Shown one piece after another: positions 6,519-22,196 of a stretch of 64,000 nucleotides of DNA. The number at the start of each line of letters is the position of its first letter. The first letter of the stretch is position 1. Source of the stretch: Dactylosporangium fulvum (GTDB taxonomy: Bacteria > Actinomycetota > Actinomycetes > Mycobacteriales > Micromonosporaceae); NCBI RefSeq assembly GCF_025137375.1, contig NZ_CP073720.1, positions 5,046,501 through 5,110,500 on the forward strand. Direction: 5' to 3'. The notes under the pieces were generated by a model. The model did not search any database. It saw nothing but the letters and a program-made list of their open reading frames with translations, and was not told where the DNA came from. Position numbers and translations under genes: made by a program.

Positions 6519-8141
6519 TCAGCTCACGGCGGCCGGCGGGCCGGTCTCCGTGAGCCGGCCGTCGGCGAGCAGCAGCCAGCGCTGCACGCCGATCTCCGCC
6601 AGGAACCGGTCGTCGTGGCTGACCACCACGAACGCGCCCCGGTAGGCGTCGAGGGCCCGCTCCAGCTGCGCGACGCTGGTCAGGTCGAGGTTGTTCGTGG
6701 GCTCGTCGAGCAGCAGCAGTTGCGGCGCGGGCTCGGCGCACAGCACGCACAGCAGCGTCGCCCGCAGCCGCTCCCCGCCGGACAGCGCGCCGACCGGCAG
6801 GTGCGCCCGCTCCGCCCGGAACAGGAACCGGGCCAGCTGGTGCATCATGTCCGACGCCGGCATCCGCGGCGCGAACGCCCGCAGGTTCTCCAGCGTGCTG
6901 CGGTCGAGGTCGAGCAGGTCCAGCCGCTGCGAGAGGTACGCCACCCGCCCGTCGGCCCGCGCCGTGCGGCCCCCGTCGGGCTCGAGCAGCCCGCCGAGGA
7001 TCCGCAGCAGCGTCGACTTGCCGGTGCCGTTGGCGCCGGTGAGCGCGATCCGCTCCGGGCCGCGGATCGTCAGCGTCACGCCGTCGCCCGCGAACAGGTC
7101 GCGGACCCGCAGCCGCTCACCGTCGAAGACGGTGCGGCCCGCCGGCACGGTCGTGTCCGGCAGTGACAGCGCGAGGGTGTCGTCCTCGCGCAGCGCCCGG
7201 TCCGCCTCGTCGACCCGCGCCCGCGCCGCCTCGAGGCGCTGCGAGTGCAGCTCGTTCGCCCGGCCGGCGGACTCCTGCGCGCGGCGCTTCAGCCCGCCCT
7301 GGATGATCCGCGGGATGTCGGCGTTGGTCCGCGCCCCGGTGCTCGCCCGGCGCGCGGCCCGCTCCCGGGCCTGCTGCAGCTCCCGCTTCTCCCGCTTGAG
7401 GTCCTGCTCGGCGCTGCGCAGCTGGCGCTCCGCGACGTCCCGCGCGGCGCGTTTGGCGGCCTCGTACTCGGCGAAGTTGCCGCCGAACATGCGCACCTGG
7501 CCGTGGTCGAGCTCGGCGATGCGGTCCATCCGGTCCAGCAGCACCCGGTCGTGGCTGACCAGCAGCAGGCACCCGGACCAGTCGTCGAGCACGGCGAGGA
7601 GCCGCCGGCGGGCGTCGCGGTCGAGGTTGTTGGTGGGCTCGTCGAGCAGCAGCACCGACGGCGCCTTCAGCAGCTGCGCCGCCAGGCCGAGGGAGACGAT
7701 CTGGCCGCCGCTGAGCGAGCCCAGCCGCCGGTCCAGCGCGACGTCGCCGAGGCCGAGCCGGCTCAGTTCGGCGCGGGCGCGCTCCTCGACGTCCCAGTCG
7801 GTGCCGATGACGGTGAAGTGTTCCTCGCTCGCGTCGCCGGACTCGATGGCGGCCAGCGCGCGCACGACCGGCGCGATCTCCAGCACGTCGGCGACGGTGA
7901 GGTCGCCGGACAGCGGCAGCGCCTGCGGCAGGTAGCCGAGCACGCCGTCGACGGTGACCGAGCCGCCGGTCGGCCGGTGCTCGCCGGCGACCAGCTTGAG
8001 CAGCGTGCTCTTGCCCGCCCCGTTGGGCGCGACGAGGCCGGTGCGGCCGGTGCCGACGGTGAACGTGAGGTCGTCGAAGACCGGGGTGCCGTCCGGCCAG
8101 GAAAAGGACAGACCGGTGCAGACGATGGAAGCCTTGGACAT
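6519..8141 (-). CDS. ABC-F ribosomal protection ATPase
   Basis: A 540-residue protein with two ABC ATPase domains and no membrane segment, the architecture of ABC-F translation factors. The first domain has Walker A at 38-46 (APNGAGKST), LSGGQ and LLLDEPTNNLD; the second has GANGTGKST, LSGGERLR and again LLLDEPTNNLD. The basic linker between them (about 225-300) includes the interdomain helices that reach the peptidyl-transferase centre. Actinomycete members displace macrolides, lincosamides or pleuromutilins from the ribosome; which drug applies here cannot be read from sequence. An unusual leader with a short ORF and two hairpins lies just upstream, as is common for antibiotic-inducible ABC-F genes. 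Confidence 0.92.
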   Translation of the reverse strand: MSKASIVCTGLSFSWPDGTPVFDDLTFTVGTGRTGLVAPNGAGKSTLLKLVAGEHRPTGGSVTVDGVLGYLPQALPLSGDLTVADVLEIAPVVRALAAIESGDASEEHFTVIGTDWDVEERARAELSRLGLGDVALDRRLGSLSGGQIVSLGLAAQLLKAPSVLLLDEPTNNLDRDARRRLLAVLDDWSGCLLLVSHDRVLLDRMDRIAELDHGQVRMFGGNFAEYEAAKRAARDVAERQLRSAEQDLKREKRELQQARERAARRASTGARTNADIPRIIQGGLKRRAQESAGRANELHSQRLEAARARVDEADRALREDDTLALSLPDTTVPAGRTVFDGERLRVRDLFAGDGVTLTIRGPERIALTGANGTGKSTLLRILGGLLEPDGGRTARADGRVAYLSQRLDLLDLDRSTLENLRAFAPRMPASDMMHQLARFLFRAERAHLPVGALSGGERLRATLLCVLCAEPAPQLLLLDEPTNNLDLTSVAQLERALDAYRGAFVVVSHDDRFLAEIGVQRWLLLADGRLTETGPPAAVS

Positions 8142-12948: not shown

Positions 12949-14064
12949 TCAGGTCCCGGGCCGGGCCCGGCGGCTGGTCACCGGCAGCCGGTGGAACGGG
13001 ATGGGCCGGTCGGCGGACCAGGGTGCGGGCGGGGCGGTCGTCAGCGAGGCGAACCGCAGCAGCACCCCTTCGTAGCAGACCCGGCAGGCGGCGAACTCGC
13101 GCCACGCCTGGTCACGGTCCGTCCTGAGCTGCGCGCCGGCGGCACGGAGCCGGCGGCACGCGTCGTCGTACTCCTCCCGGGTCACCGCGATCGGGGCGTT
13201 GCGCCGCCCGCCCGCGTCGTACGGCATTTCGTAGGGCATGTGGAAGTAGTCGCCGATGCGCCGCAGCGCGAGGTGGCCGGCGCGCACGCACAGGCCGGCG
13301 TGGGACGGCTGCGTCCCCTGGGCGATGAACGTCGAGGAGACGAGCGCGGCGGAGTCCAGGACGGCGCCGGCGGCGGTGACCCAGTGCCGGTCCGGTGAGG
13401 GTGAGCGGAAGAAGACCAGGATCGGGTTGGACGAGTGCGTCTCCTCCAGCTCGTTGAACCACCTGGTCCAGTCGTGCCAGTACTCGTCGAGCAGCTCGAC
13501 GCCCTTGGCCCGCAACAGTCGCTCCAGCAGCTCGGTGGCCGACGGGGGCGTGCCCGCCTCGACCTCCAGCGCGGTCACGAGCACCTCCCGCCTGGAGTAG
13601 CTCGAGTACAGGGCCGGGAGGTAGTTGATCACCATCGCGAGCAGGCCGAGGCCGACCATCGCCTCGACGACCTGCACCGCGCCGGTCGCGAGGCCGCTCG
13701 GCTGGTGGAAGCCGAGCGTCAGCAGCGACGAACCGCTGTCCAGCAGCGCGTCCTGCCAGGGACGCACGCCCAGCGACCAGAACACCGCGGCGAACCCGGT
13801 CAGGATGAGCGCGAGCCAGGCCACCGGCAGCGCCAGCACCGTGACCGGGCCGAACAGCACCAGCACGTGGTCACAGTCGTGGTAGGTGCGCGCCCTGCGC
13901 AGCCGCAGGTCGAACAGCGCCCGGACGGCGACCATCACCCAGCGCGTGATCAGGACCGTCGTGCCGCGCGGCACGACCAGGGTGCGCGCCGCGGAGAACG
14001 CGGTGGCCAGGACCGTCGCCGCGCCCAACAGCCCGACCAGCAGCGCGAGGATGTCACGGCCCAT
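12949..14064 (-). CDS. Channel-like membrane protein of unknown function
   Basis: A 371-residue protein with an N-terminal membrane anchor (residues 5-30), further hydrophobic segments (about 68-92 and 95-112) and then SGSSLLTLGFHQPSG followed by a long hydrophobic helix ending in LPALYSSYSRRE. This last part looks like the pore helix, filter and inner helix of two-TM ion channels, with TLGF where potassium channels have TVGYG. The C-terminal 200 residues are cytosolic and contain a WHDWTRWFNELEETHSS block. Family members are annotated as hypothetical or ion-channel-like; transport is not shown. The start ATG 14064 has no clear ribosome-binding site. Confidence 0.6.
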   Translation of the reverse strand: MGRDILALLVGLLGAATVLATAFSAARTLVVPRGTTVLITRWVMVAVRALFDLRLRRARTYHDCDHVLVLFGPVTVLALPVAWLALILTGFAAVFWSLGVRPWQDALLDSGSSLLTLGFHQPSGLATGAVQVVEAMVGLGLLAMVINYLPALYSSYSRREVLVTALEVEAGTPPSATELLERLLRAKGVELLDEYWHDWTRWFNELEETHSSNPILVFFRSPSPDRHWVTAAGAVLDSAALVSSTFIAQGTQPSHAGLCVRAGHLALRRIGDYFHMPYEMPYDAGGRRNAPIAVTREEYDDACRRLRAAGAQLRTDRDQAWREFAACRVCYEGVLLRFASLTTAPPAPWSADRPIPFHRLPVTSRRARPGT

Positions 14065-14198
14065 GACGGTGCCCCGGAAGTCGAACTTCAGCGTGACCTC
14101 TCAAGGTACCCCGGCAGCGAGCGGGGCCGGGCTCACCCGGCCGCCCACCCCGGGGTTCACCCCCCACGGGTCCGGAGCGGACGTATGGTGGTAAGTGG

Positions 14199-14343
14199 CC
14201 TGCAAGACAAGCGGGAGAGCAAAACTGGTAAAACAGTGGAGCTGAGACGTCGAAAGGCTGATCGGTCGAAAGACCGAGAGGTTGGACGACGATCCCCACT
14301 ACCTGATCCGGGTAATGCCGGTGAAGGGAAATTGCCTTGCAGG
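14199..14343 (+). promoter_or_regulatory. TPP riboswitch aptamer (THI element), orphan
   Basis: The 3' half has the diagnostic THI-box sequence CCTGATCCGGGTAATGCC followed by GGTGAAGGGAA (14311-14331), and the 5' half has the GCTGAGA element that recognises the pyrimidine. P1 is a perfect 8-bp helix, CCTGCAAG with CTTGCAGG, enclosing the whole element. P3a is extended and includes the CGGTC-GAAA-GACCG hairpin and a CGTCG/CGACG helix. It would bind thiamine pyrophosphate. No gene follows on the plus strand before 16.4 kb, so it controls no visible coding sequence. A -10-like TATGGT lies just upstream (about 14184). Confidence 0.88.
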
Positions 14344-14349
14344 TCATGG

Positions 14350-14388
14350 AGGCCGCGACGTCCGACCAAGACGCCGCGGCCTTGTTGT
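14350..14388 (+). terminator. Terminator of the TPP riboswitch
   Basis: AGGCCGCG pairs with CGCGGCCT (8 bp, further inner CGTC/GACG pairing) and is followed by TTGTTGT. It begins seven bases after the riboswitch P1 helix, as expected for an expression platform. Confidence 0.8.
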
Positions 14389-14424: not shown

Positions 14425-15303
14425 CTACGCGACCGGGAAGTCGAAGTACGTGCGCGGGAACGGTTCGCCGCCGAGCGTGTAGTGCCACCACTCCTTCGGG
14501 TAGTTGGCGAATCCGCCCGTGGCCATCAGCCCGGTGAGCAACGCCCGGTTGTCCCGGACCGCAGTGCTCAGTCCCGGGGCGGCCGTGTGCGCCAGCGGGT
14601 CGAAGCAGTCGAACCCGGTGCCCATGTCGATGCTGTTGTCCGGGAACCGTTGCCCCGCCGGTGCGGTGCAGGCGACGAGCGGCCGGTCCGGCGTGTACGA
14701 GGGCTGGTCGCGGGGCGGCGTGGCGACCAGTGTCAGATCCACCGTGCTGCCCCGGCTGTGTGCGGTGGGCCCGCCGATGTACCCCTCGTCGAAGAGCACG
14801 GACTTGTCGACCTCGGGGTAGAACTCCGACTTCATCCGCTGGTCGCGGTCGCCCGCCCAGCGGATGAAGTCGTCGACGCCCTGCTGCGGGCGATAGCAGT
14901 CGTACACCTTCAGGCTGTATCCCCGGGCGAGCGCGGCGGTCTGCACGTGGTGCAGCGCCTCCGCGGCCTGCCGGGTGAGCAGGCAGCGCGGCTGCCGGTA
15001 GCCGGCGACCGGCCGGCCGACAAAGTTGTGCGCGGTGGCGTACCGGATGTCGGTCAGGATGCTGGGATCCACGTCCGGCAGCGCGACGAATCCCGGCGGG
15101 ACCGGGGCGAGGGACGCCCCGGACGGGCTGGCCGGTGCCGGCGGCGACGGCTCGGCGGCTGACGGCGACACCGTCTGGGCCGGTGACGAGCCGGTGGCGG
15201 AGTGTGGCGGCCGGGCCGATGGTGCCGACCGGGCAGGCCCGCCGCAGGAGGCGGTCAGGGCACAGGCCGCGGCGGCGACCAGGACGCGGACGACGAGGTG
15301 CAT
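14425..15303 (-). CDS. VanX-like D-Ala-D-Ala dipeptidase lipoprotein
   Basis: A 292-residue secreted lipoprotein of peptidase family M15D. It begins MHLVVRVLVAAAACALTASC, a signal peptide with lipobox LTAS-C, then a Pro/Ser-rich linker to about residue 75. The catalytic zinc site is seen in TAHSRGSTVDLTL (His and Asp) and KEWWHYTLGGEPF (catalytic Glu and third zinc ligand). VanX-type enzymes hydrolyse D-Ala-D-Ala; exported members may act in peptidoglycan turnover rather than vancomycin resistance, since no vanH/vanA lies here. The ATG 15303 is chosen for the signal peptide; the same frame is open upstream through a formate dehydrogenase relic. Confidence 0.85.
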   Translation of the reverse strand: MHLVVRVLVAAAACALTASCGGPARSAPSARPPHSATGSSPAQTVSPSAAEPSPPAPASPSGASLAPVPPGFVALPDVDPSILTDIRYATAHNFVGRPVAGYRQPRCLLTRQAAEALHHVQTAALARGYSLKVYDCYRPQQGVDDFIRWAGDRDQRMKSEFYPEVDKSVLFDEGYIGGPTAHSRGSTVDLTLVATPPRDQPSYTPDRPLVACTAPAGQRFPDNSIDMGTGFDCFDPLAHTAAPGLSTAVRDNRALLTGLMATGGFANYPKEWWHYTLGGEPFPRTYFDFPVA

Positions 15304-16275
15304 GCCCAGATTATTCGGCTTTGTACGCAGATCGATGCTCCCCGGGGCGCGGATCACGCCGTACGGGCAGGCCGGGATGCAGTAGCCGCAGCCGTTGCAG
15401 ATGTCCTCCTGGACGACAACCGTGCCGAACTCGGTGCGGAACAGCGACCCGGTCGGCACGTACAGCCAGCCCTTGCCGTCGCCCTGCTGGACGAACGGGT
15501 CGTCGCCGGCGATCGCCTCCGGGCCGGTCGCGCCAGGCGGCGGCCGGTAGCCCGGCGGCTTCGTCCGCTCGAAGTCGGGCACGTCCGGCCCTGCCCAGAC
15601 CCCGCGCTCGGCGTCCCACCAGACGTACCGCTTGCGGTCGCTCCACGGCCGGCCCTCCGGATCGGCGGAGGCCCGGTTGTACATGAGGCGCCGGTTCAGC
15701 GGCCAGGCCCAGCCCCACTCGAGCGCCACCTCGTCCTGCTCGGTGCGCGGCTTGCGGCGGGCCGCCTGGTTCACCCCGCCGGCGTACACACCGGCGTAGA
15801 TCCAGCAGCCGCCCGCCGTCGTACCGTCGATGCGGTACTCGGCGAAGCCCGACAGCGGCCGCCGGGTCGCGGTCTCGTAGCCGTTGATCTCCATGAGGAC
15901 CGCCTCGGCGCTCGGCTCGTCGTGCACGCCGTGCACCGGGTAGTCCCAGTCGAGGTCGAGCAGCGCCCGGTCCCGCGGCTCGGTGGACCCGGCCAGCCGC
16001 TCCCGCATCCGCCGGCCGAGGTGGTAGAAGAACCACAGCTCCGAGCGGCAGTCGCCCGGCGGGTCGAGCGCCTTCTCCCGCCACTGCAACAGCCGCTGCG
16101 TCTGGGTGAAGGTGCCCTCCTTCTCCACGTGCGAGGCGGCCGGCATCAGGAACACCTCGGTCCGGCAGTGCTCGGGCACGATCTCGCCGGTGCGGACCTC
16201 GAGGCTGTCCTTCCAGAACGTGGCGCTCTCGATCTCGTACAGGTCGCGCACGACGAGCCAGTCGAGGTTCGCCAT
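15304..16275 (-). pseudogene. fdhA'-fdhB' formate dehydrogenase deletion chimera
   Basis: The frame begins inside the catalytic subunit of a formate dehydrogenase (MANLDWLVVRDLYEIESATF, then SHVEKEGTFTQTQRLLQW, the molybdopterin-dinucleotide domain) and runs to DGKGWLYVP near 15455. There it jumps directly to TGSLFRTEFGTVVVQEDICN and GCGYCIPACPYGVI, an internal part of the iron-sulfur subunit FdhB with a CxxCxxCxxxC cluster motif. The fdhA N-terminus, the fdhA end, the fdhB start and the fdhB end are all missing. No stop codon separates it from the VanX-like gene, so the open frame is continuous, but no such fusion enzyme is known and I regard it as a relic. Confidence 0.85.
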
Positions 16276-20082: not shown

Positions 20083-21354
20083 GTGTTGAGCGTGGAGGAC
20101 TGGGCAGAGATCCGTCGTTTGCACCGGGCGGAGGGGGTGCCGATCAAGGAGATCGTCCGGCGGTTGGGGGTGGCTCGGAACACGGTGCGGGCGGCGTTGG
20201 CGTCGGATCGGCCGCCGCGGTATGAGCGGCCGGCGCGTGGGTCGGTGGTGGATGCGTTCGAGCCGCGGATCCGGGTGTTGCTGGGTGAGTGGCCGCGGAT
20301 GCCGGTTCCGGTGATCGCGCAGCGGATCGGCTGGCCGTATTCGTTGTCGCCGTTGAAGAAGCGGCTGGCGCAGATCCGGCCGGAGTACGTGGGGATCGAC
20401 CCGGTCGACCGGGTCGTCTATGAGCCGGGGCAGATCACGCAGTGCGATCTGTGGTTCCCGCAGCCGCGGATCCCGGTCGCTGCGGGTCAGGACCGGGTGT
20501 TGCCGGTGCTGGTGATGACGCTCGGGTTCTCCCGGTTCATGACCGCGACGATGATCCCGACCCGGCAGGCCGGGGACATCCTGTCCGGGATGTGGCTGCT
20601 GATCTGCGGGATCGGGCGCGTCACCCGGACCCTGGTCTGGGATCGGGAGTCCGCGATCGGCGGGACCGGCAGGGTCAGCGCCCCGGCGGCGGCGTTCGCC
20701 GGGACCCTCGCCACCCGCATCCAGTTGGCCCCGCCCCGCGACCCGGAATACAAGGGCATGGTGGAACGCGCCAACGGCTATCTGGAGACGTCGTTCCTGC
20801 CCGGCAGGCGGTTCACCTCACCCACCGACTTCAACACCCAGCTCGGTGACTGGCTGGGGAGCACGGCGAACACCCGCACGGTCCGCTCGATCCATGGCCG
20901 GCCCGTGGACCTCCTCGAAACGGACCGCCCGGCGATGCTGCCGCTGCCACCGGTCGGGCCGCAAGTCGGTTTGCAGCAACGGATCCGGCTGGGCCGGGAC
21001 TACTACGTGCGGGTCGACACCGTCGACTACTCCGTCGACCCGCGTTTCATCGGCCGGTTCGTCGAGGTCACCGCCACGGCGCATCTGGTGACGGTGTCCT
21101 GCGACGGCACCGTCGTGGCCCGGCACGACCGGTCCTGGGCCAAACACGGCGTGATCACCGACCCGGGCCACGCCGCGACCGCGAAGCTGATGCGCCACGC
21201 CCTCGCCGAAGACCGCCAACGACGCCTCGCGGCCACCCGCCACCACGGCGACGGGCATCCGGTCACCCTGCGGGCCCTGCACGACTACGACGCCCTGTTC
21301 GGCGTCGACTTCAACCCAACCACCAGCACAGCAACGAGAGCGAGCAGCGAATGA
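20083..21354 (+). CDS. istA: IS21 transposase IstA
   Basis: A 423-residue DDE transposase. The N-terminal helix-turn-helix is EDWAEIRRLHRAEGVPIKEI with LGVARNTVRAAL, which binds the element ends. The catalytic acidic residues are in QITQCDLWFPQ, LVWDRESAIGG and PEYKGMVERANGYLETSFL. A C-terminal beta-rich domain (LGRDYYVRVDTVDYSVDPRFIGR) is usual. GTG 20083 is the family-like start; GTG 20092 behind GGAGG is an alternative. It acts with IstB and its stop overlaps the istB start by four bases (ATGA). Confidence 0.95.
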   Translation: MLSVEDWAEIRRLHRAEGVPIKEIVRRLGVARNTVRAALASDRPPRYERPARGSVVDAFEPRIRVLLGEWPRMPVPVIAQRIGWPYSLSPLKKRLAQIRPEYVGIDPVDRVVYEPGQITQCDLWFPQPRIPVAAGQDRVLPVLVMTLGFSRFMTATMIPTRQAGDILSGMWLLICGIGRVTRTLVWDRESAIGGTGRVSAPAAAFAGTLATRIQLAPPRDPEYKGMVERANGYLETSFLPGRRFTSPTDFNTQLGDWLGSTANTRTVRSIHGRPVDLLETDRPAMLPLPPVGPQVGLQQRIRLGRDYYVRVDTVDYSVDPRFIGRFVEVTATAHLVTVSCDGTVVARHDRSWAKHGVITDPGHAATAKLMRHALAEDRQRRLAATRHHGDGHPVTLRALHDYDALFGVDFNPTTSTATRASSE

Positions 21355-22196
21355 CCACCACCAAGACGAAATCCCAGCAAGCCCAGCCCACCGGCCCCAG
21401 AAACGGGCCCGGCGGCGGGATCAAGGACGGGATGCCGTCGATGATCGCCTACCTCACCCGGGTCCTGAAGACCCCCACCATCGGCGCGTTCTGGGAAGAA
21501 CTCGCCGGTCAGGCCCGGGACGAGAACTGGTCCCACGAAGAATATCTGGCCGCGCTGCTGCAACGCCAGGTCGCCGACCGCGAGTCCAAAGGCACCGTCA
21601 TGCGCATCCGCACCGCGCACTTCCCAACCGTGAAAACCCTCGAGGACTTCAACCTCGACCACCTGCCCTCACTGCGCCGCGACGTCCTCGCCCACCTCGC
21701 CACCAGCACCTACGTCGCGAAAGCCGAGAACGTGATCCTGCTCGGACCACCCGGCCTCGGCAAAACGCACCTCGCCATCGCCCTCGGCGTCAAAGCCACC
21801 CAGGCCGGGCACTCCGTCCTGTTCGACACCGCCAGCAACTGGATCACCCGCCTCGCCGAGGCCCACCACGCCGGACGTCTCGAAGCCGAACTGAAGAAGA
21901 TCCGCCGCTACAAACTGATCATCATCGATGAAGTCGGCTACATCCCGTTCGACCAGGACGCCGCGAACCTGTTCTTCCAACTCATCGCATCCCGCTACGA
22001 GCAAGGCTCCGTCATGGTCACCTCGAACCTGCCGTTCGGACGCTGGGGCGAGACCTTCTCCGACGACGTCGTCGCCGCAGCCATGATCGACCGACTCGTC
22101 CACCACGCCGAGGTCCTCACCCTCACCGGCGACTCCTACCGCACCCGCCAACGCCGCGAACTCCTCAACAAAGACAACCGCACCAACCACAACTGA
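21351..22196 (+). CDS. istB: IS21 helper ATPase IstB
   Basis: A 281-residue AAA+ ATPase related to DnaC, which assists IstA in target choice and strand transfer. Walker A is LLGPPGLGKTHLA, Walker B LIIIDEVGYIPF, sensor-1 region VMVTSNLPFGRW, and the C-terminal DRLVHHAEVLTLTGDSYR is characteristic of IstB. Translation is coupled to istA through the ATGA overlap. Confidence 0.95.
   Translation: MTTTKTKSQQAQPTGPRNGPGGGIKDGMPSMIAYLTRVLKTPTIGAFWEELAGQARDENWSHEEYLAALLQRQVADRESKGTVMRIRTAHFPTVKTLEDFNLDHLPSLRRDVLAHLATSTYVAKAENVILLGPPGLGKTHLAIALGVKATQAGHSVLFDTASNWITRLAEAHHAGRLEAELKKIRRYKLIIIDEVGYIPFDQDAANLFFQLIASRYEQGSVMVTSNLPFGRWGETFSDDVVAAAMIDRLVHHAEVLTLTGDSYRTRQRRELLNKDNRTNHN

Follow-up and report, generated by a model that had tools for sequence, protein, structure and literature searches.

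The window analysed here is a 64,000-nt stretch of the Dactylosporangium fulvum genome, to which all unlabelled positions refer. Positions 14198–14345 of its plus strand hold an RNA element of the TPP-aptamer type, flanked on both sides by genes of the minus strand. The divergent neighbour encodes a 371-aa protein without a Pfam or NCBIfam family (12949–14064), the convergent neighbour an M15 / VanX-like D-Ala-D-Ala dipeptidase lipoprotein (14425–15303; PF01427, E 5.9e-39). The VanX-like gene and an fdh-like remnant stand between the element and the next annotated plus-strand protein, a rhomboid-like one that starts at about 16.68 kb, more than 2 kb past the element, as a preliminary description of the locus had noted. 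The remnant, a fragment at 15327–16275 with Fe-S and molybdopterin-oxidoreductase matches, is fused in frame to the lipoprotein ORF (14425–16275 in total) and looks like an fdh relic. Further downstream, an IS21-type element composed of a Mu-type transposase and IstB occupies 20083–22196. A cis-acting TPP riboswitch would be expected to precede a thiamine gene or transporter as part of its 5' UTR; here, the gene downstream is the convergent VanX-like one. A long plus-strand ORF that spans the element was regarded as spurious.

The closing helix P1 is formed by the strands 14198–14209 and 14333–14344, and its core arms CCTGCAAG (14199–14206) and CTTGCAGG (14336–14343) pair perfectly. Among eight sequences compared, 11 pairs of P1 include three with double, i.e. 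compensatory, changes, and the P3 arm (14218–14243) is paired in all eight. The motif GCTGAGA (14241–14247), which we take from the thiM structure to be the pyrimidine-sensing motif of TPP aptamers, is invariant in the family except for copy G005 and the non-TPP variants described below. The P3a arm (14248–14290) is 16 nt longer than in the orthologue. The THI motifs ACCTGATCC (14301–14309) and GGGTAATGCC (14310–14319), followed by GGTGAAGGGAA, make up the P4–P5 pyrophosphate-sensing half (14301–14330). All ligand-contact motifs (UGAGA; ACCUGAU; L5; G.AGGGA) are present, with a U where thiM has C77. The positions of GAAGGGAA, UGAGA, ACCUGAUCC, L5 and the P1 arms agree with the preliminary description, whose THI element was found in place.

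Unconstrained folding returned the TPP aptamer architecture with z = -5.7, none of 200 shuffles being as good, and the P1-P2-P3/P4-P5 junction fold is accompanied by covariation. The RF00059 model aligns over its full length (model positions 1–105) to 14203–14346 with 41.1 bits (cmscan). This lies below the curated cut-off of 54.3 bits, and a scan of the window at the gathering score reports no RF00059 element, though the E-value over the full model is 1.6e-6. A low covariance score had been named beforehand as evidence against the element; the score is indeed low with the generic Rfam model, whereas the family model R1 introduced below, of which the window copy is one of the seven seeds, gives 134.8 bits.

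Upstream of the RNA, two CACCC boxes at a distance of 12 bp (CCCACCC, 14144–14150; TTCACCC, 14156–14162) are conserved in the Dactylosporangium copies and presumably serve as an activator site. A -10-like hexamer, TATGGT (14184–14189), lies about 9 nt before the RNA, where Dactylosporangium copies have TANNNT, and transcription would start at about the first base of P1. On the other side, a GC-rich hairpin with the arms 14351–14362 and 14370–14381 (-23.4 kcal/mol) and the tail TTGTTGT (14382–14388) is a probable intrinsic terminator. The terminator had been reported to follow the element at once; this is approximately right for the hairpin, which begins 7 nt past P1, while the tail is T-rich but interrupted. 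The hairpin is conserved in D. roseum (38 of 43 positions identical), where the tail reads CTTCTTTG. In relatives the sequence of a GC-rich hairpin and a U-run is provided by P1 itself and a U-tract, as seen in G000b, G004b, G002, G005 and G003; in the window copy and its orthologue, the separate hairpin with the T-rich tail takes their place.

Few RNA sensors have been studied as well as TPP riboswitches, which have been described as leaders of thiamine genes. The 10.5-Mb, single-contig genome of D. fulvum contains four RF00059 matches, two ordinary and two divergent. The ordinary ones precede a PF09819 permease and a thiS-side operon, such that transport and thi genes are served by separate canonical TPP riboswitches; the divergent ones are the window element and a second copy at 1402140. 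Relatives were matched to D. roseum, D. siamense and D. sp. AC04546; a member from another genus corresponds to Planosporangium mesophilum.

Both D. fulvum copies are syntenic in D. roseum. At the window locus the two species share the same neighbours, including the 371-aa protein, and no thi gene is present. As the orthologous locus on the complete D. roseum chromosome is arranged alike, a coding gene hidden by misassembly is not the cause of the orphan position. Conservation is centred on the RNA, with 93% identity (123 of 132 aligned bases) versus 82% for the promoter, 88% for the terminator and 74–76% for the outer flanks.

Within Dactylosporangium, the promoter consists of the paired CACCC boxes 12 bp apart and the TANNNT hexamer, the second box being located 20 nt before GTANNNT. 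The derived pattern YTCACCC-N20-GTANNNT has only two matches in the whole D. fulvum genome, exactly the two RNA copies, and likewise only two in G006, both of them RNA copies. Searching with the promoter motif alone led to two further RNAs in G002, in which the closing helix is kept and the TPP interior is gone. A closing-helix pattern yielded 11 matches in 354 genomes, all in Dactylosporangium and including a tandem pair with non-TPP interior in G003, while the reversed control yielded none. In total, the TPP core is lost or shortened with promoter and closing helix kept in two copies each of G006, G003 and G002 and in one of D. roseum, and G005 carries CTCAG in place of CTGAG. Copies with promoter, closing helix and non-TPP interior are located at L136:6198-6292 and 7572-7666 (G003, tandem, 1.4 kb apart), L137:6372-6468 and L138:5618-5686 (G002), and L094:6658-6783 and L095:6671-6802 (G006). 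These paralogues, together with the CTCAG of G005, indicate that ligand sensing is not universal in the family.

The family model R1 was built from seven copies. In 354 Micromonosporaceae genomes it separates the family, with scores above 60 bits, from ordinary TPP riboswitches at about 40 bits. Eight sequences of this set keep 98% of the pairs, and their covariation of 0.209 compares with 0.019–0.086 for slid controls and was reached in none of 500 shuffles; one P5 pair, for instance, is G-C in five sequences and A-U in three. Moving to higher taxonomic levels, a model search in a sample of 396 Actinomycetota genomes revealed one member in the genus Streptomyces and several in a distant actinobacterial family (f30), the other weak matches being ordinary leaders of thi genes. 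Here, Streptomyces is the presumed genus of the large carrier set, the nearest named match being Embleya, a Streptomycetaceae. Among 392 Streptomyces genomes, 107 (about 27%) have a single match at E <= 1e-9, in nearly all cases with scores clearly above 60 bits. Many matches of 50–57 bits outside the family (L150–L162) were discarded as ordinary TPP riboswitches before thi genes. Altogether, homologous elements occur in six of seven Dactylosporangium genomes, two genomes of the Planosporangium group, the distant family, and the 107 Streptomyces genomes.

Thirty Streptomyces sequences form 97% of 53 pairs, 17 of which show double changes, and all four core motifs are intact in 28 of them. The closing helix extends over 12–14 bp, with a U-tract behind it; four or more T within 10 nt past P1 were found at 70% of the Streptomyces loci versus 4% in the background. 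A coding role was rejected, as the lengths of the Streptomyces RNAs differ out of frame and no conserved ORFs are present. Spread by a mobile element was dismissed as well, since the window pattern has no matches in viral contigs and the Streptomyces RNA none in phages; the single plasmid match is a 5.7-Mb Embleya replicon. Common to the members are a dedicated promoter region, a closing helix often with a U-tract directly after it, and usually the TPP core. The members scored against RF00059 reach 33.5–49.0 bits, all below 54.3, which explains why they are not annotated. We conclude that they probably constitute a previously unannotated small-RNA gene family in soil actinomycetes, of which most members would control no adjacent gene.

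The genomic context is in good accordance with this conclusion. A convergent gene comes next at 28 of 30 Streptomyces loci, and the loci are scattered over many unrelated sites, e.g., between iscS and mnmA, next to a TetR gene and a ferredoxin, or beside a phosphoglycerate mutase-like gene; as the Streptomyces genes were called by simple GC3-based ORF picks, individual cases may be wrong. The neighbours of the Dactylosporangium copies differ as well. Across the family, the convergent gene encodes, from copy to copy, the VanX-like peptidase, MerR, IscS, TetR or a zinc-binding dehydrogenase. Read-through antisense to the VanX-like gene, predicted earlier for low TPP, is for this reason unlikely as the function in general. 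No thi gene adjoins any family member inspected. In the Streptomyces loci L171, L175, L178 and L187, the RNA runs antisense to the two genes on either side of it, iscS (cysteine desulfurase) and mnmA (tRNA 2-thiouridylase); this association with sulfur-relay genes is possibly due to chance.

Exceptions are given by G002, the second copy of G006, G673 and possibly G044, in which a same-strand gene follows 20–170 nt downstream; some members may thus be ordinary leaders. One of them, G673, forms an instructive pair with G736. In G673, an intact phosphoribosyltransferase gene begins 21 nt after the RNA, while its counterpart in G736 is a pseudogene that lacks the start codon and most of the central part. 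The two RNAs, which call for some caution as both come from draft assemblies, are about 93% identical and differ at about nine of 139 positions, two of which compensate each other, turning a C-G pair of P3 into T-A. The persistence of the RNA with a compensatory change next to a dead gene suggests selection on the RNA independent of that gene. The G673/G736 pair is the best single test of INDEPENDENCE.

A further promoter feature was found outside Dactylosporangium and Streptomyces. In all six genomes tested there, from Planosporangium, a MAG and f30, a DosR-type box (RGGACNNNYGSCCCT) ends 36–38 nt before the RNA; these genomes are mutually related and not independent trials. The motif occurs 7–17 times per genome in these six and, genome-wide, is not commoner than the reversed control; what counts is its fixed position. 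In a seventh genome, G778, a similar sequence can be made out by eye. The box is absent from the window copy, where the paired CACCC boxes are found instead. Same-strand genes downstream of the RNA are often homologues of DosR-regulon members, namely the phosphoribosyltransferase (G002, G673), an M50-CBS protease (G006) and a universal stress protein, Usp (G044). The phosphoribosyltransferase also adjoins the degenerate D. roseum copy, and RtcB, archease and NAPRTase are encoded near other copies. The M. tuberculosis counterparts of phosphoribosyltransferase, Usp, M50-CBS protease, RtcB and NAPRTase belong to the DosR regulon, whose genes include Rv0571c, Rv2625c, Rv2623, Rv2631 and Rv0573c (PMC5309233). 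At L165:1124-3267 (G752), an RNA copy with its own DosR-type box lies directly past NiFe hydrogenase genes.

Taken together, we consider it fairly probable that the window element represents an autonomous small-RNA gene with a TPP-class aptamer as its body, and that its product binds TPP, is closed by P1, and acts in trans or via its stability. Transcription from the gene's own promoter would begin at about the first base of P1, and the two ends of the RNA would pair as P1. In many relatives, the U-tract directly past P1 would let the closing helix double as intrinsic terminator; the window copy has no such U-tract, which counts against this explanation, and here the separate hairpin a few bases on may do the terminator's job. 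TPP, if bound, would hold the closed, terminated form, resulting in a TPP-responsive free RNA of about 130–180 nt. This RNA might exert its effect elsewhere, through base pairing or protein binding, or its lifetime might report TPP. Even in the absence of TPP, P1 is stable enough to form, and ligand-dependent termination may therefore be slight. In some lineages, the DosR-type box could make the RNA part of the low-oxygen or dormancy response. The wider proposal, a widespread actinobacterial sRNA family in which the TPP aptamer has become a free TPP-sensing trans-regulator, switched by oxygen or dormancy (DosR type) in several lineages and linking thiamine status to dormancy, is tentative, and we hold it for possible rather than probable.

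One alternative is a relic, i.e., a riboswitch in decay after rearrangement had removed the thi gene or thiamine transporter downstream of it. The 2-kb distance to the next plus-strand gene, the oxidoreductase remnant and IS21 element nearby, and the degenerate cores of some paralogues would fit. However, D. roseum shares the site, neighbours included, and lacks a thi gene there, its RNA is far better conserved than the outer flanks, and compensatory changes have accumulated in the RNA. Moreover, more than 100 homologues are known, and those inspected in Dactylosporangium, the Planosporangium group, the distant family and Streptomyces have no adjacent thi gene. The relic reading is contradicted by these findings, and we regard it as very improbable; the loss of a thi gene at this locus, suggested earlier, receives no support, while the proposal made beside it, that the element works alone, agrees with homologues that mostly lack a downstream gene.

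More weight, though still an unlikely standing, is due to a TPP-gated attenuator, in which P1 is the terminator and transcription without TPP reads through into a downstream gene or antisense to the convergent one. The U-tract after P1 in many copies points in this direction, as do the phosphoribosyltransferase starts 21 nt past P1 in G673 and about 55 nt in G002, and HMP-PP riboswitches provide a precedent for an aptamer placed within a terminator (PMC6478431). Yet an attenuator needs a downstream target, which most copies lack, their neighbour being convergent and of varying identity, and in G736 the RNA has outlived the gene downstream of it. In G044, the RNA and usp, the universal stress protein gene, are separated by a second DosR-type box (G044:C24:111650-111664, L061), such that usp could be transcribed without the RNA. 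Nor is there a clear antiterminator: in the window, the best complement between aptamer and terminator measures 9 bp, and both structures coexist in the folded RNA. Somewhat less probable still is a descendant of TPP riboswitches that no longer senses TPP and in which the closing helix or the P3 arm is active, e.g., by binding a protein. Between Dactylosporangium and Streptomyces the closing-helix sequence is held tighter than pairing alone needs, and copies that have lost the core retain promoter and helix; a role in structure only, in contrast, has no need of UGAGA, ACCUGAUCC and GCG.AGGGA, which 28 of 30 Streptomyces copies preserve.

The preferred reading, an autonomous TPP-aptamer RNA gene, has partial counterparts. 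In Listeria, SreA (SAM) and Rli55/EutX (AdoCbl, sequestering EutV) are reportedly trans-acting RNAs under riboswitch control. They share with the present family the path from metabolite aptamer to short terminated RNA, trans action being only inferred here, and differ in that our family is of the TPP ligand class, resides in actinomycetes, and mostly lacks a regulated gene downstream. DrrS/MTS1338 of M. tuberculosis is a DosR-regulated sRNA and resembles the copies with a DosR-type box as a small RNA under a promoter of this type. With the TPP aptamer proper (RF00059, THI element), the family has in common the P1–P5 structure with optional P3a, UGAGA, ACCUGAUCC, L5 and GxAGGGA; it differs by its sub-threshold scores, an extended closing helix of conserved sequence, the lack of a thi gene, and its own promoter and terminator. 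The HMP-PP riboswitch (thiS motif, PMC6478431) likewise merges a thiamine-pathway aptamer with an intrinsic terminator; it has another fold and ligand, its motifs precede thiamine-pathway genes, and its ligand prevents termination, whereas TPP would be expected to favour termination in the present family. In a reannotation of S. lividans, two TPP riboswitches were listed, both before thiamine genes (PMC8079986). We found no prior report of a stand-alone TPP RNA family in the open-access literature, and an earlier description is possible. Precedents exist for the aptamer class, for trans RNAs derived from riboswitches (SAM and AdoCbl, in Listeria) and for a thiamine-pathway aptamer within a terminator. 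A family equipped with promoter and terminator of its own would mean that a classic aptamer may serve as a regulatory gene in its own right and, if the DosR connection is true, would tie a central coenzyme to the hypoxia/dormancy network. It also suggests that other orphan or sub-threshold aptamers may be RNA genes.

Three further observations concern individual loci. One exact match to the family pattern occurs in a MAG labelled Bacteroidetes (L101), where chance or contamination is possible. Near one Streptomyces RNA, the minus strand of L139:1272-1345 carries a partial cobalamin riboswitch match of 33.9 bits (cut-off 31.5). About 2.6 kb from the second RNA copy of D. fulvum (L034:3200-3505), a gene for an MTH1187/YkoF-type thiamine-binding protein (PF01910) is part of a minus-strand group with glutamine synthetase, directed away from the RNA, and it is also present at the orthologous D. 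roseum site (L036).
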